Source: a virus
DNA length: 21,269 nucleotides
Direction: 5' to 3' (one strand)
Virus record (IMG/VR): IMGVR_UViG_3300005663_000218
Span: 1-21,269 of that record
Positions 1,822-21,230 of the stretch are shown here, piece by piece. Each line of letters starts with the position of its first letter. The first letter of the stretch is position 1. Made by a program: the position numbers and the translations under genes. Under the pieces are notes generated by a model. The model saw only the letters and a program-made list of their open reading frames with translations. It did not search any database and was not told where the DNA came from.

Positions 1822-3219
1822 TTATATTTGACCTGTCTGTTCAGCTATCAAACCTATAGGAGGGAAAAGAGTCGGGTCACTTTTAGACGAACTTATAATA
1901 TCATCCTCTAGCGAAGTCGTTGCAGTTTCCTCACCGCCACCACCTCCTCCACCACCACCGGCGCCACCTCCTCCACCAATAGCGCTAATACCTCCAGTAA
2001 TGAAGTCTCTAACCTGTGGATTATTACCAACAGCCCTAATCAGATCTAACTGTATTTCTGCCAATGTTTTACCGGCAGCAAAATCAGCCATAGCCTTATC
2101 CATCACCTCTTGGAAATTACCTGTAGGAACAACTCCAGCTTCTATAATAAAGTTCTGCATATCACTCAATAATGTTTGCAATCCTTCTTCTTTAACGGCT
2201 TTATCCTCTCTAGTTTCTCCTCTTATCTGTGCTTGCTCAGCTCTTATTTCAGCATTTATATCTCTACCTTCAGCTCTAAACTCGGAAGCTATCTGTCTAT
2301 TCTCAGCAGTCTCGGTAACAGTTTCTTGTAGATTAAATTCAAGCGCTCTTCTGGCTAAATCAATCTCTTGCTCATCCAACTGTCCCGACTGTTCAAACCC
2401 AAATATCAAAGCGTCTATATTATCTTGACCGGACTGCACCATGGTATCAAATTCTTTATCAGATAATCCAAGCTGAATATCAAGACCGGCCCTTAGCCTT
2501 GTGTGAGATCTCACTAATTTATCCATTTGATCTACTAAGGCTCCTCTCTCTTTAGCTTCAACCCTTCTAAATTGAGCCTGAGTTAATCCAACATCTTTGG
2601 TCCGACTTACTATATCTCCTCGAAGATCAGTTAATAATCCTTCTGTGTCAAGTATCTGCTCTTCTACAGCTTGTATCGAAGGAGCAAAAAATCTACTAAT
2701 ACGACTATCTTCACCAAATAATTGATCAAATGCTGAAGTCCTTAAGTCTCCCATTCCTCGTATAGCTTCTGTAATCTCACTCACATCTCCTTCTCGGCCT
2801 GCAAATATGTCTTGTATCTTTTGTTCAGCCGTAGCAAAAGGATCAGCTGCTTCTCCAGGAGCCGCTACGTCCGCACCTCTTATTCCACCTACATCTGTAA
2901 CACCAGGAATTCCAGCTTCTGCTTCTGCCGTAGCTGCCACTCCACCCGCTGTTGGAGTGGTAGGCAAGCCTCCCGCGCCTGCTGCTAATTCTGTGATCCT
3001 GCTACGAGCTGCTTCCTCAGACTCAGGAGTCACCTGTAATGGTGGCGCGGGCGCCCTGTCAGGTTCACCAGGAGGTCTCGCAGCTCTGGGAGCTGTGGGT
3101 TTAGGAATAGACGTGACAGTGACTCCAGGCGCTATACCTGGATCATCTGCACTTGTTTGAACAGTGCTACCTTGAGCGGCTCTATTTCTAAATTGTTGTA
3201 TTCTATCTTGAACTGCCAT
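1822..3219 (-). CDS. Helical internal virion protein with Pro/Ala-rich N-terminus and poly-Gly linker
   Basis: 465 residues, family not recognised. Residues 1-130 are low complexity, rich in Pro, Ala, Gly and Thr (PRAARPPGEPDRAPAPP at about 44-60). Residues 130-400 are charged and mostly helical, with heptad-like stretches around 180-250 and 285-345 (RQIASEFRAEGRDINAEIRA). An almost pure glycine run covers residues 415-429 (bases 1933-1977), followed by a short acidic tail. The layout of disordered head, long helical body and flexible tail, and the place between the head-tail adaptor and the large terminal protein, suggest an internal or ejection protein. The start at 3219 is the only one in frame near the end of the upstream gene, and its leader is AT-rich without a Shine-Dalgarno. 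Function is inferred from context only. Confidence 0.7.
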   Translation of the reverse strand: MAVQDRIQQFRNRAAQGSTVQTSADDPGIAPGVTVTSIPKPTAPRAARPPGEPDRAPAPPLQVTPESEEAARSRITELAAGAGGLPTTPTAGGVAATAEAEAGIPGVTDVGGIRGADVAAPGEAADPFATAEQKIQDIFAGREGDVSEITEAIRGMGDLRTSAFDQLFGEDSRISRFFAPSIQAVEEQILDTEGLLTDLRGDIVSRTKDVGLTQAQFRRVEAKERGALVDQMDKLVRSHTRLRAGLDIQLGLSDKEFDTMVQSGQDNIDALIFGFEQSGQLDEQEIDLARRALEFNLQETVTETAENRQIASEFRAEGRDINAEIRAEQAQIRGETREDKAVKEEGLQTLLSDMQNFIIEAGVVPTGNFQEVMDKAMADFAAGKTLAEIQLDLIRAVGNNPQVRDFITGGISAIGGGGGAGGGGGGGGGEETATTSLEDDIISSSKSDPTLFPPIGLIAEQTGQI

Positions 3220-3241
3220 ATTTATTTTAAGTTAAATTTTA

Positions 3242-4168
3242 TTAACTGAGTCCGGTAGGGTAATTATTAGGATTAACAGGTAGTAGATCTCTTGGTAATG
3301 TATGTACATAAGGAGAATCATACATCTCTTCTATATCTTTTCTTAACGATTTCAAAGCACGTTTCGCCCTGTCTTCATAATAACTTGCTTTACCTCCGGC
3401 TATACTCATGTCCTCTCTCTTCTCCCACAATCTTTGGAGCGTGAATCTGGCTACTATCTCCGTTGCGTCTTCAGGTATTGGTGGAACTGTTCCTAATTTG
3501 TAGTTCCCTCCAGAAATAGTAGTCCCCTCGTAATTCCTATCTATAGTAATAGAGGTCGCAGTCGCGAATGACGTGATCTTATACCAGAACCCATCAGTGT
3601 CGAATCGTATATATCTACCTACGTCAGTGGCGGCAAACGCTGTTCCAACCCCAGTCACAACGGCTGCACCATTGACAATAGAAACAGTTCCAGCAATTTT
3701 GTCAGTAAAGTCATTAGAGCTTACATCTCTAAAATAACTATAATATTTAACTTTAATACTATTACCAGCAGAAGAAAGAATCGGATAAAAACTAATCTTA
3801 TATCCACTACTGGTCCCTATCGGTCTAATGAAAAAGAAACTAGGATAATCAGAAGCAGCCGTACTTCCATCACCGGTCACTAGATCATCCCACTGATCTC
3901 TACTCGCAATAGGCTGTATAGGATAATCAACACTCCCTACAGTGATTATACAGCTTATAGCCTGTCTATAATTCATAGGAAGCTCGTACGTGCCTGTAGA
4001 AGCGATTGTCGTTAATGTAGTAGTATTTATCTCATAATTAATTTTAAGCTGTCTCTTGACATCTTTTATAAGAATATTTATATAGCTCTGTATAGCTGTT
4101 TGAGTTTTCGCACTAGAATCATTAGACGTATCTTGTACGTATTTCTGTATTTCTGCTACTGTTCTCAT
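3242..4168 (-). CDS. Head-tail adaptor / gatekeeper-like neck protein
   Basis: 308 residues. The N-terminal 45 residues are helical (RTVAEIQKYVQDTSN, then INILIKDVKRQLKINYE). A beta region follows with the pattern TGTYELPMNYRQAISCIITVGS and FFFIRPIGTSSGYKISFYPI. The C-terminal part returns to helix (ATEIVARFTLQRLWEKRED, then AKRALKSLRKDIEEMYDSP). This order of helical bundle, short beta domain and C-terminal helix is usual for adaptor proteins of the T7 gp11 / P22 gp4 kind, which join the portal ring to the tail. Residues 158-226 look like an extra beta module between the beta domain and the last helices. It lies among tail genes 17 bases before the next gene upstream, which supports a neck role. 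No Shine-Dalgarno. The assignment rests on pattern recognition, not a search. Confidence 0.6.
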   Translation of the reverse strand: MRTVAEIQKYVQDTSNDSSAKTQTAIQSYINILIKDVKRQLKINYEINTTTLTTIASTGTYELPMNYRQAISCIITVGSVDYPIQPIASRDQWDDLVTGDGSTAASDYPSFFFIRPIGTSSGYKISFYPILSSAGNSIKVKYYSYFRDVSSNDFTDKIAGTVSIVNGAAVVTGVGTAFAATDVGRYIRFDTDGFWYKITSFATATSITIDRNYEGTTISGGNYKLGTVPPIPEDATEIVARFTLQRLWEKREDMSIAGGKASYYEDRAKRALKSLRKDIEEMYDSPYVHTLPRDLLPVNPNNYPTGLS

Positions 4169-18243: not shown

Positions 18244-19863
18244 TTAGATATATTTCCATGCCTCATTATCGTCTAAATCGTGATCCTTGCCTAATATAGG
18301 AATTCTATCTGCCGGAATACTGTCGTCAGTGACATATATCGCAGCCCCTTTAACTCTCTTCTCCTCGTTCTCCTCCGGCTTAGGCACTTTGCTTAACGCC
18401 ATCTTGAAATATGCTGTAGCGTGTACAAAATGATCAGGGCCACTGTGCTTCCACTCTGAATACAACATCCCGAACCTATCCTCTTCCGTAACTTTGTATA
18501 TATTTTGCCAGTGTTTACAGTATTCGTCAAGGTTTTGTTCAAGATAGACTTGCGGAGTTCTGCCATCTGTGGTGAAAGGTAGCTTTTTATCTATAAAATC
18601 ATATATGATAGAAGAGATCATTTGGTTTCTGTCTACATATACGTGTCCTCTTTTATCGTCTTGCCCCCACTCGATAAGTTCTTTTCGCTGAGAATTATGT
18701 TTATAGAAACAGACAAATACTTGATTACGATATTTAGGTACAAGCTTTCTACGTGGATACGGATCCGGATTAGCATCTATTACAGTAATAGGATTATATT
18801 TTATAATCTTCTGTTCAAGTTGTTTCCATATTTTTTCACCCTTTATAGTTCCGGTTTCAAAAATACCGGCATGATTCCCTACGACATAGTGCAATTCTCT
18901 GTACCCCACATCTACACCCATAGCATTTCGCAGTTTATTATTTTTATCCGTCTTAATATTCTGCAATATAAGTTCCTTATCCACAGTTTCATCTTTCTCG
19001 ATGTAGGGGAGGCCCAAGATCATGTTGTAGAAGTACTGAGGGGTTTTAGTCTCTTCTAAATAAACAAGCTCTCTAGCAGTCACCCACGGAGCCATGAGTT
19101 GATTTATATGATACCCGTGCATCTCTCTGTTCTCATATTCGGCTATCCACTCACCTACACGCCGGTCCTCTTCGTTGAGTTCCATTTTACAATGTTGACA
19201 CATATACACCATCTTGTCCTTGTCTATATTCTTCCAGTAGTCAAGAGCCTGATAGTGGTTACACCTGGAGCATTTAATCATCCAATGTCTTTTATCAGAC
19301 ATCTCATATTTAGCGTCAATACCGCCAGGTCTTATAGGATTAGAGAAAAACCATTCTCCTTTATACTTGGATTTCTGAAGACGAGACGCGTATAGATCTA
19401 CAACCTCTATATTGGAAGCGTCGTACTCGTCGTAAATATTAAGATCTGAGGTGTGCATGATCGCCGCCTTTTTCCCATGAGTACCTCTGTACCAAATGAA
19501 GTTATTCCCAATCTGCTTTTTCGTGATAGCGTCAGAAGTATGTACAAGTTTCGCCAGGACAGGATTATTCGTTATCATATTATCCACCTTGGAAGGTACA
19601 AAGTCATGTACATCATCAAAAGTGGGTAGACAATAAATGCAGTTCAAGTTTCTAAACGCTAATCCGTAAAAGGTTTTTAAGATCGCCAGTGTGCTCCACC
19701 CTATCTGAGCGGACTTCATGGTTGCCTGCTTCCAGTGCCAGTTAGCAAAAGGTTCCAGTAAGAAATAATGCTCCTTAAACTCCACCTTCTCACCACGTTC
19801 AGTCTTGATGCCGTTCTGCATGATCCAACCGAGGACCGACTGATTTAAATCTATATCACTCAT
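18244..19863 (-). CDS. terL: Terminase large subunit, GpA-like (ATPase-nuclease)
   Basis: 539 residues. Packages DNA into the procapsid by ATP hydrolysis and cuts it. The ATPase part has a Walker A-like motif MKSAQIGWST (residues 49-58), adenine-side LEPFANWHWKQ and Walker B LNIYDEYD (141-148). A four-cysteine zinc ribbon (C198, C201, C222, C225; CSRC and CQHC) separates it from the nuclease, as in GpA-family terminases. The nuclease keeps likely metal ligands D318 (GVDVGYRELH), D363 (VIDANPDP) and D477 with H478/H481 (GPDHFVHATAYF). Length is somewhat below lambda gpA, mainly at the C-terminus. The start overlaps the tiny peptide by 8 bases. No small subunit is obvious; one of the small genes to the right is a candidate only by position. 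Confidence 0.9.
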   Translation of the reverse strand: MSDIDLNQSVLGWIMQNGIKTERGEKVEFKEHYFLLEPFANWHWKQATMKSAQIGWSTLAILKTFYGLAFRNLNCIYCLPTFDDVHDFVPSKVDNMITNNPVLAKLVHTSDAITKKQIGNNFIWYRGTHGKKAAIMHTSDLNIYDEYDASNIEVVDLYASRLQKSKYKGEWFFSNPIRPGGIDAKYEMSDKRHWMIKCSRCNHYQALDYWKNIDKDKMVYMCQHCKMELNEEDRRVGEWIAEYENREMHGYHINQLMAPWVTARELVYLEETKTPQYFYNMILGLPYIEKDETVDKELILQNIKTDKNNKLRNAMGVDVGYRELHYVVGNHAGIFETGTIKGEKIWKQLEQKIIKYNPITVIDANPDPYPRRKLVPKYRNQVFVCFYKHNSQRKELIEWGQDDKRGHVYVDRNQMISSIIYDFIDKKLPFTTDGRTPQVYLEQNLDEYCKHWQNIYKVTEEDRFGMLYSEWKHSGPDHFVHATAYFKMALSKVPKPEENEEKRVKGAAIYVTDDSIPADRIPILGKDHDLDDNEAWKYI

Positions 19864-19924
19864 TAAAGGATGTTATCAAACACGCAATTACGAATCCGGC
19901 CATAAGTAAACTGTATAAATCCAT
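19856..19924 (-). CDS. Tiny hydrophobic peptide overlapping the terminase start
   Basis: 22 codons from ATG at 19922-19924 to TGA at 19856-19858, beginning MDLYSLLMAGFVIAC and ending LITSFNE. It is one hydrophobic helix. Its stop overlaps the terminase start in an 8-base overlap (ATGAGTGA), the same geometry as the 233/90-residue gene pair at 9511-9518, so it may serve for translational coupling (leader peptide) as much as for a protein product. Its ATG lies 19 bases after the last helix of the candidate structured RNA. Short open frames arise by chance, so confidence is limited. Confidence 0.4.
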   Translation of the reverse strand: MDLYSLLMAGFVIACLITSFNE

Positions 19925-19942: not shown

Positions 19943-20232
19943 GGACGGGGATATTGCGCAATCCCCAGCTTGTCCAGTTGCCAGAGTACTACCTCCACCA
20001 GCCTTTTACACGTGCTATTATGACTGGTCTTTCAAGTTTAATCCCCTCGTTATTTGGTGGCAAGAGAGGGCATTGCCCCTCTCCTACCATATTAGTTCTC
20101 AGAACCCTCAACATTAGCTGACGAAGGCAAATTATTAGTGATGAAACTACAAATGTACCCATTTTCCCACCAGCTAAGTTGAGAGAGAGAGTCCAAATCT
20201 CCAACATTACGTTGAAGGTTCTAAGAACTAAT
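19943..20232 (-). ncRNA. Candidate structured RNA upstream of terL
   Basis: The bases between the 86-residue gene and the tiny peptide hold no credible gene but fold on the minus-strand transcript. P1: 20211-20232 with 20091-20112, 22 bp, all paired, with two G-U wobbles at the only DNA mismatches (A-C on the other strand). P2: 20198-20205 with 20178-20186 (8 bp, one bulge). P3: 20171-20177 with 20114-20120 (UUAGCUG/CAGCUAA). P4: 20163-20170 with 20138-20146 (8 bp, one bulge). P2 and P3 abut with no spacer, as do P3 and P4 on the 5' side, and P3 and P1 are one base apart: a tight three-way junction. Further hairpins: 20064-20070/20077-20083 (GAGAGGG), 19997-20003/20022-20028 (one G-U), and 19947-19952/19961-19966 with an outer GGAC/GTCC at 19943-19946/19972-19975. 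It may be an RNA gene or a leader of terL. No U-run terminator follows. Confidence 0.6.
20091..20232. repeat. 22-bp inverted repeat, 98 bases apart
   Basis: Arms 20091-20112 and 20211-20232 agree at 20 of 22 positions. Each arm also begins with a small palindrome, GTTCT-C-AGAAC in one and GTTCT-T-AGAAC in the other. The flanks show no target-site duplication. It is interpreted as the P1 helix of the RNA above; a protein-binding or packaging site in the DNA is the alternative. Confidence 0.85.
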
Positions 20233-20234
20233 TG

Positions 20235-20495
20235 TCAATACTTTTTCTTCTTACGCTTCTTCTCCATAAACATAGGCTCACAGCCTTTTCTAGCAAAACT
20301 CTCACTGGTAGCCGGTTTTGTGTTCATACACTGCCTACGGTCTCTCATGACAGCCTCACGATCCAGCTCAGCCTTGTCACACACAGCAGCTACTTCTTCT
20401 TCTGAGCTACACTTGGAGATCTCTGATTGTAGATCAATATTTTTCATAACTAATGTTGACCATCCTAAACTACGGTATTTAAATTTTATTTTCAT
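20235..20495 (-). CDS. Small charged protein, unknown
   Basis: 86 residues, not recognised. The start ATG overlaps the stop of the 63-residue gene (ATGA, bases 20492-20495), a standard sign of translational coupling, which supports both the gene and this start; an in-frame internal Met at residue 17 (MKNIDLQSEI) is the alternative. The middle is an acidic helical stretch (SSEEEVAAVCDKAELDREAV). The end is strongly basic (MEKKRKKKKY) and could touch nucleic acid. Four cysteines (29, 39, 56, 72) are scattered and do not make an evident zinc site. It is the last gene before the structured RNA and terL; a small-terminase-like DNA-binding role is possible by position but not supported by motif. 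Confidence 0.55.
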   Translation of the reverse strand: MKIKFKYRSLGWSTLVMKNIDLQSEISKCSSEEEVAAVCDKAELDREAVMRDRRQCMNTKPATSESFARKGCEPMFMEKKRKKKKY

Positions 20496-20699: not shown

Positions 20700-21101
20700 T
20701 TATAATTTAGTCATATTTTTAAGAAAACTTTTGTACATCTTCTGACTACTACCGGCTTTAAATTTCACACAAACATCACATATAATTACGTTCTCCCCTG
20801 TAGTCTCGTTCCAAGTTTCATAACAAGGCGTCTTAGCAATATCCCATTCCTCTTTACAGTTACTGCATAAAGCCATGACCGGATCTACTGCAAGCTCCTC
20901 ATCATGCGATATTCCTGCCGGATAATCTTCATTGGGAGATAAATCGTCATTGAAAGGCTTACCTTGAAGTTCAGTCACATCTTCCTTCATCCCGTAAATA
21001 GTCCCTCCCACCCTAAAACACTCTCCATCCCTCATCAAACACATATAATGGCTCAAACGAGCTTTGTACTCCCTGACTGTGATAATTTTAATCTTCTCCA
21101 T
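20700..21101 (-). CDS. Small zinc-ribbon protein with possible Phd/YefM-like N-terminus; candidate regulator
   Basis: 133 residues. The N-terminus KIITVREYKARLSHYMCLMR followed by DGECFRVGG recalls the Phd/YefM antitoxin start (strand, 'R-x-x-K/R-x-x-L-S' helix, 'xxGE' turn, strand), a dimerising DNA-binding fold. The middle is acidic (PNEDYPAGISHDEELAVDP). The C-terminus has a zinc ribbon of C79, C82, C108 and C111 (CSNC and CDVC). The ATG is touched directly by the first of five GTGACTAC repeats, so self-repression is plausible. No toxin-like partner is evident in the small genes downstream. The Phd resemblance is weak and unverified; the zinc-ribbon pattern is clear. Confidence 0.55.
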   Translation of the reverse strand: MEKIKIITVREYKARLSHYMCLMRDGECFRVGGTIYGMKEDVTELQGKPFNDDLSPNEDYPAGISHDEELAVDPVMALCSNCKEEWDIAKTPCYETWNETTGENVIICDVCVKFKAGSSQKMYKSFLKNMTKL

Positions 21102-21219
21102 GTAGTCACCGTTATGCTGTAAGCGTAGTCACATCTTACATCTACTGTAGTCACGCTGTCAATGTTAACGTAGTCACCGTATACACAATGGCTTTACAAG
21201 GTCAATAAAACGTAGTCAC
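21102..21219 (-). promoter_or_regulatory. Array of five GTGACTAC direct repeats (operator/iteron-like)
   Basis: The octamer, GTAGTCAC on the plus strand, occurs at 21102-21109, 21125-21132, 21147-21154, 21170-21177 and 21212-21219. Starts are 23, 22, 23 and 42 bases apart, close to two and four helical turns, so a protein would meet them on the same or a slowly rotating face. In minus-strand reading the octamer is always followed by A or G. It ends at the ATG of the 133-residue gene and covers promoter-like sequences. Best read as an operator array; a replication iteron set is the main alternative. Confidence 0.8.
21133..21162 (-). promoter_or_regulatory. Candidate promoter of the small-gene/late operon
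   Basis: On the minus strand TTGACA (21157-21162), 18-base spacer, TAAGAT (21133-21138). The third repeat lies inside the spacer and the second begins just after the -10-like box. A weaker alternative, TTGACC (21200-21205), 16 bases, TATACG (21178-21183), lies upstream between repeats 4 and 5. Neither fits the Bacteroidota TTTG / TAnnTTTG pattern that the leaders would lead one to expect. Confidence 0.35.
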
Positions 21220-21230
21220 ATAGTGAATGT

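Follow-up and report, generated by a model that had tools for sequence, protein, structure and literature searches.

The operons of phages T7 and lambda contain RNase III processing signals, which are intercistronic stem-loops and mostly consist of single hairpins. The put RNA of phage HK022, which is short and located behind a promoter, precedes phage genes and folds into paired hairpins within the nascent transcript. Furthermore, GOLLD, ROOL and OLE are highly structured orphan non-coding RNAs, some of which occur with phage genes (PMC12286853). The literature searched contained no report of structured RNA preceding the terL gene of a phage.

The DNA analysed here (hereafter the window) is an IMG/VR virus record of 21,269 bases from an uncultured phage. 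The window genes are encoded on the minus strand in the order small ORFs, terL, portal, a further ORF, major head protein and later genes, with the following features of relevance:

20235..20495, minus strand: upstream 86-aa ORF with a lysine-rich C-terminus, without family match
19856..19924, minus strand: 22-codon hydrophobic mini-ORF, the 3' end of which overlaps the terL start
18244..19863, minus strand: terL, GpA-like (PF05876, phrog_675)
minus strand, downstream of terL: portal (phrog_156)
minus strand, downstream of the portal and a further ORF: major head protein (phrog_9953)

The element is placed between the lysine-rich 86-aa ORF, for which no relative was identified in IMG/VR, and terL. 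It begins 2 nt past the stop codon of this ORF and ends ahead of the mini-ORF overlapping terL, which may represent a coupling leader for terL. The window TerL shares less than 30% identity with those of isolated phages among the best matches listed. Its closest relatives found are IMG/VR fragments, namely L001 (73% identity), L002 (68%), L003 (67%) and L028 (63%), followed by L004 and L009 (both 58%) and L032 (54%), and no TerL relatives were found in GTDB contigs. Long in-frame intein-like insertions interrupt TerL in L020 (932-1990, also in L021) and L022 (939-1715), at two different protein positions.

The stretch from 20232 to 19943 is confirmed to be tightly folded and without coding signal, in agreement with the original prediction of about 290 bases that lack a credible gene and fold on the minus-strand transcript. 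Its best ORF (72 aa, 20207-19989, ATG start) obtains a codon score (-0.155) that is near the spurious-ORF mean of -0.17, and it has no match in Pfam or PHROGs. No tRNA or tmRNA was found, and the Rfam 15 covariance models gave no match for the stretch at the gathering score. The minus strand has a minimum free energy of -110.1 kcal/mol compared to a shuffle mean of -78.2 (z -6.54; 0 of 200 shuffles as low), while the plus strand of the same stretch has a z of -4.65. The core (20232-20091) exhibits z values of -7.8 to -8.4 in sense orientation (-8.4 with 500 shuffles) and -6.6 in antisense orientation, the latter being also far from random, as would be the case for any long inverted repeat, whereas 20090-19943 folded alone reaches only -3.0. 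Across the record, 141 non-overlapping 150-nt windows per strand have a mean z of about -0.3 (sd 1.2) and a minimum of -4.8, located at a different site. In addition, a strand-neutral search assigned the closing inverted repeat a score of 46, compared to a best score of 29 among 100 shuffles.

The predicted minus-strand structure consists of the following parts:

20209..20232, minus strand: 5' arm of the closing helix, 24 bp with 3 G-U pairs, mismatch-free (repeat score 46; mean pair probability 0.97)
20091..20114, minus strand: 3' arm of the closing helix (from inverted-repeat search and pair probabilities)
20178..20205, minus strand: three-way junction, branch A, a bulged helix of 8 bp (mean pair probability 0.91)
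20115..20176, minus strand: three-way junction, branch B, helices of 10, 8 and 4 bp in turn (mean pair probabilities 0.90-0.96)
20058..20089, minus strand: 13-bp hairpin with 2 G-U pairs, mismatch-free (mean pair probability 0.97)
19944..20048, minus strand: 3' domain of lower certainty, with 20028-20022/20003-19997 as its best helix (mean pair probabilities of its helices 0.61, 0.97 and 0.70)

The repeat arms form the exact borders of the domain 20232-20091, and both contain the palindrome GTTCT-N-AGAAC. The 22-bp closing helix with two G-U pairs described in the original prediction holds for the first 22 bp, but the helix is really 24 bp long with three G-U pairs, and a helix of at least about 20 bp is thereby present between two same-strand genes, the 86-aa ORF and terL. 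The three-way junction was likewise recovered, with gaps of 3, 1 and 0 bases rather than the stacking at gaps of 0 or 1 initially described. Among the further hairpins proposed towards terL, the one at 20089-20058, which is located 1 nt from the three-way-junction domain and lacks a T-run behind it, is solid. Of the three helices closest to terL, however, two reach mean pair probabilities of only 0.61-0.70. No terminator-like site (G+C-rich hairpin plus T-run) was found at the hairpins of 20232-19943, and consensus scans identified neither a promoter-like site directly ahead of the element nor a promoter or terminator of its own. The 3' domain also contains a ribosome-binding-site-like GGAGGT (19996-19991, minus strand), but ATG, GTG and TTG are all missing at the spacing usual for a start codon.

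The orientation of the G-U pairs had been regarded as the trace of selection on an RNA. It was re-examined with the strand-neutral repeat search: on the terL-sense strand, the two significant repeats of the window contain five G-U and no A-C mismatches, and those of L002 seven G-U and one A-C. However, as the sense strand is keto-rich, this argument is weaker than first claimed: composition alone predicts that 55-63% of transition mismatches are G-U (63% in the window domain). When pooled with L002, and only then, the excess (12 G-U vs 1 A-C; P ~0.005-0.03) is moderately convincing evidence in favour of RNA over DNA, and in combination with the better sense fold it moderately favours RNA. Long imperfect repeats are fairly common in this phage group, with 33 compared to 6 in shuffled sequence (391 kb).

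L002 also has a structure ahead of terL, where 436 nt contain no sense-strand ORF of 45 codons. Its positions 251-417 fold with a z of -6.7 in sense and -4.1 in antisense orientation, and two hairpins (251-272 and 273-308) are directly followed by a 27-bp repeat around 55 nt, an order of domain and hairpins that differs from that in the window. Comparison of the first 18 pairs of the closing helices identified 9 identical, 5 one-sided, 4 compensated and 0 broken pairs, while pairs 19-24 align poorly. Permuted L002 pairs equalled the observed similarity to the window with P 0.013 (P ~0.01-0.02 overall), and of 24 long repeats from the phage group, that of L002 had the highest helix similarity, whereas plain alignment gave no signal (P 0.86); a MAFFT alignment was left out because the 3' arm was misaligned. 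The covariance model scored L002 with 14.9 bits (E 0.015), part of which any long helix would obtain. The L002 structure may thus be considered an analogue of that in the window and possibly a homologue. Compensatory changes, which the original prediction had proposed as a check, are suggestive in this single uncertain homologue, and covariation is not established because a firm homologue was not found. It is conceivable, if rather doubtful, that window and L002 together represent an undescribed, fast-evolving phage RNA family with a branched core enclosed by a long closing helix and one or two adjoining hairpins, in which structure would have been kept and sequence similarity lost. Such a family would occur in only some members of the phage group and would either affect the terL mRNA or function as a discrete RNA.

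No sequence homologue of the element was identified in the collections searched. Blastn against phage and plasmid records yielded only short matches, which were taken as chance, and a hairpin pattern search of IMG/VR returned zero matches. A pattern of the features common to window and L002 recovered L002 together with one coding sequence in four identical copies, the latter rejected as chance. An arm pattern had zero matches in IMG/VR and one in a Clostridia genome, which is coding and was also rejected as chance. A single-sequence covariance model run on 49 sources and 20 whole records detected the window itself only, which is a weak negative as this insensitive model also missed L002 at default filters.

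The element is patchy among relatives and occupies a place where several of them have joined genes. The terL start is overlapped by a 50-aa lysine-rich ORF in L003 and by a small gene in L004, the two relatives lacking the structured gap, and the same arrangement is visible in L001 within the 222 nt present. Sense folds near terL are ordinary in all three. L009 has a long non-coding leader that is unstructured, L032 has nothing notable folded directly ahead of terL, and structure signals in L028 are mostly found within a stretch of many GTGACAGTCA repeats. The intergenic region of L028 at 3422-3589 contains an 18-bp inverted repeat around a 168-nt structured stretch, which folds far better on the strand opposite terL (minus z -6.1 vs plus -2.6). 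This repeat was rejected as a homologue, given its opposite strand and different place, and its helix letters match those of the window no better than those of other repeats.

A stem-loop at the stop codon of a 157-aa gene (window 13112-12639) is strong in five of the five distinct genomes where the place is visible:

12639-12585, minus strand: stem-loop in the window
L012:6811-6861: stem-loop at the 157-aa gene
L045:8255: stem-loop at the 157-aa gene
L047:10462: stem-loop at the 157-aa gene
L049:8155: stem-loop at the 157-aa gene

The stem-loop sequences are mostly unrelated between genomes. The window and L012/L027 versions have the inner stem CTGCYCCTTA/TAAGGGGYAG in common, and the outer stem of window and L012 differs in sequence with its pairing kept. 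Intercistronic stems with a fixed position and diverged sequence therefore exist in this phage group. A G-rich motif of approximately GGGGGYATRGGGGGGKTNNNGGGGGYGTGG precedes terL in four distinct relatives, where it is conserved on the terL-sense strand:

L002:63-93: G-rich motif
L004, approximately 3219-3250: G-rich motif
L009:2862-2892 (also in L010): G-rich motif
L028:3628-3657: G-rich motif

This motif could in principle form a G-quadruplex or be a packaging, replication or promoter site. It was not seen in the window, where the contig possibly ends before it. Furthermore, a gene resembling Phd/YefM at its start and a zinc ribbon at its end, both as judged by eye, is located upstream of terL in the window (20700-21220), L004 (3300-3981) and L028 (3710-4392). 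Many short operator-like repeats are found ahead of this gene, some even within it, and their sequence is another one in each phage (GTGACTAC about five times in the window, TTGTACAA in L004 and GTGACAGTCA many times in L028).

The fold excess, the strand preference, the absence of a coding signal and of an Rfam match, and the sense-strand analogue in L002 bear out the original view of an undescribed structured RNA. We tentatively hypothesize that the stretch is a cis-acting intercistronic structured RNA in the terL mRNA with a function in processing, insulation or translation control, a plausible reading that is favoured by the fold excess, the sense preference, the place, the G-U excess pooled with L002, the L002 analogue, the strong stem kept at another intercistronic site of this operon and the overlapping small gene of relatives. 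The transcript would run from the small upstream genes through the element into the terL-portal-capsid operon, and the three-way-junction domain with its adjoining hairpin would form a compact block separating translation of the upstream genes from that of terL. As the 24-bp double strand (about two helical turns) is long enough to be a substrate for an RNase III-type enzyme, the mRNA could be cut at the element, or a new 5' end could be protected there. Translation of terL might then restart through coupling to the overlapping 22-codon mini-ORF.

Alternatively, the stretch could act at the DNA level, as paired protein-binding palindromes or as a component of a site for packaging or replication close to terL. 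Because each arm contains GTTCT-N-AGAAC, part of the element could have a DNA-binding role, and two such operators alone would make much of the inverted repeat. Both strands also fold far better than shuffles, and operator-like repeat arrays occur in neighbouring genes of the phage group. However, every mismatch in the window and almost every one in L002 is G-U when read on the terL-sense strand, folding is clearly better in sense orientation, and operators need no branched internal pairing, which makes a DNA site unlikely. The patchy distribution and the repeat arms that bound the domain exactly would also suit a mobile or recent MITE-like insert with terminal inverted repeats that is functionless for the phage. 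Yet neither the several copies nor the target-site duplication of a miniature inverted-repeat element was found: the element is single-copy in the record and no further copy was found by the searches of IMG/VR, GTDB contigs and phage and plasmid records, no duplication is evident at its ends, and a structure at the same place in L002 would be left unexplained. Such an insert is considered improbable. We regard a 72-codon small protein gene (20207-19989) with incidental structure as hardly credible: an ATG-started frame is present and the small genes here are also weakly codon-biased, but its codon score is that of spurious ORFs, it matches no family, and the structure is far beyond that of coding regions in this genome.

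Two of the three functions originally suggested for a phage RNA at this site, antitermination of the 18-kb late operon and packaging, fared less well than the proposed cis-acting element. A put-like RNA modifying RNA polymerase would be well located at the entry of this long operon, with hairpins formed in the nascent RNA. However, terminator-like sites in consensus scans are not above shuffled sequence (three on the coding strand; six on both strands vs 10.8 expected in shuffles). The scans thus place the element neither shortly after a promoter nor ahead of an excess of terminators, and it is absent in relatives with the same operon, so that this function appears very improbable. A discrete trans-acting RNA, either a TerL packaging RNA or a small regulatory RNA, would be consistent with a compact and stable structure near terL and is decidedly improbable for other reasons. 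None is found at that place in relatives with 58-67% identical TerL, where a small gene instead overlaps the start of terL, which disfavours a packaging RNA. An obligatory packaging RNA in particular is unlikely because L003 and L004 have a small gene in its place, and conservation together with the packaging ATPase, as for the phi29 pRNA, is not observed. Moreover, the insensitive covariance model detected no such RNA in 20 whole relative records, and neither a promoter or terminator of its own nor an Rfam match was found.

If real, the stretch would place an orphan structured element where a packaging operon begins, in a phage group to which the phage collection offers no close cultured relative. 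It would also mean that such elements can outrun sequence-based family searches while position and fold persist. With one well-folded example and one probable analogue at present, its weight is modest. Compared to GOLLD, ROOL and OLE, which are far longer and have many homologues (PMC12286853), the window element comprises 140-290 nt and has no firm homologue or Rfam match. The phi29 pRNA is likewise compact and branched and comes from a phage locus close to the packaging ATPase gene, and its copies are joined into a ring by interlocking loops. The window element differs from it in having no Rfam match, in being missing from relatives with very similar TerL and in accompanying a GpA-like terminase that is not of the phi29 type. 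In contrast to the shorter, promoter-proximal put RNA of HK022, it is not followed by an excess of terminators. The candidate resembles known intercistronic elements, and its novelty is limited until homologues or transcripts are found. It differs from the RNase III signals of T7 and lambda in its predicted branched domain with a 24-bp closing helix and a second hairpin. As in those signals, two genes of one transcript would be separated by an extended RNA duplex with hardly a break, the position of which is kept while the sequence is variable.
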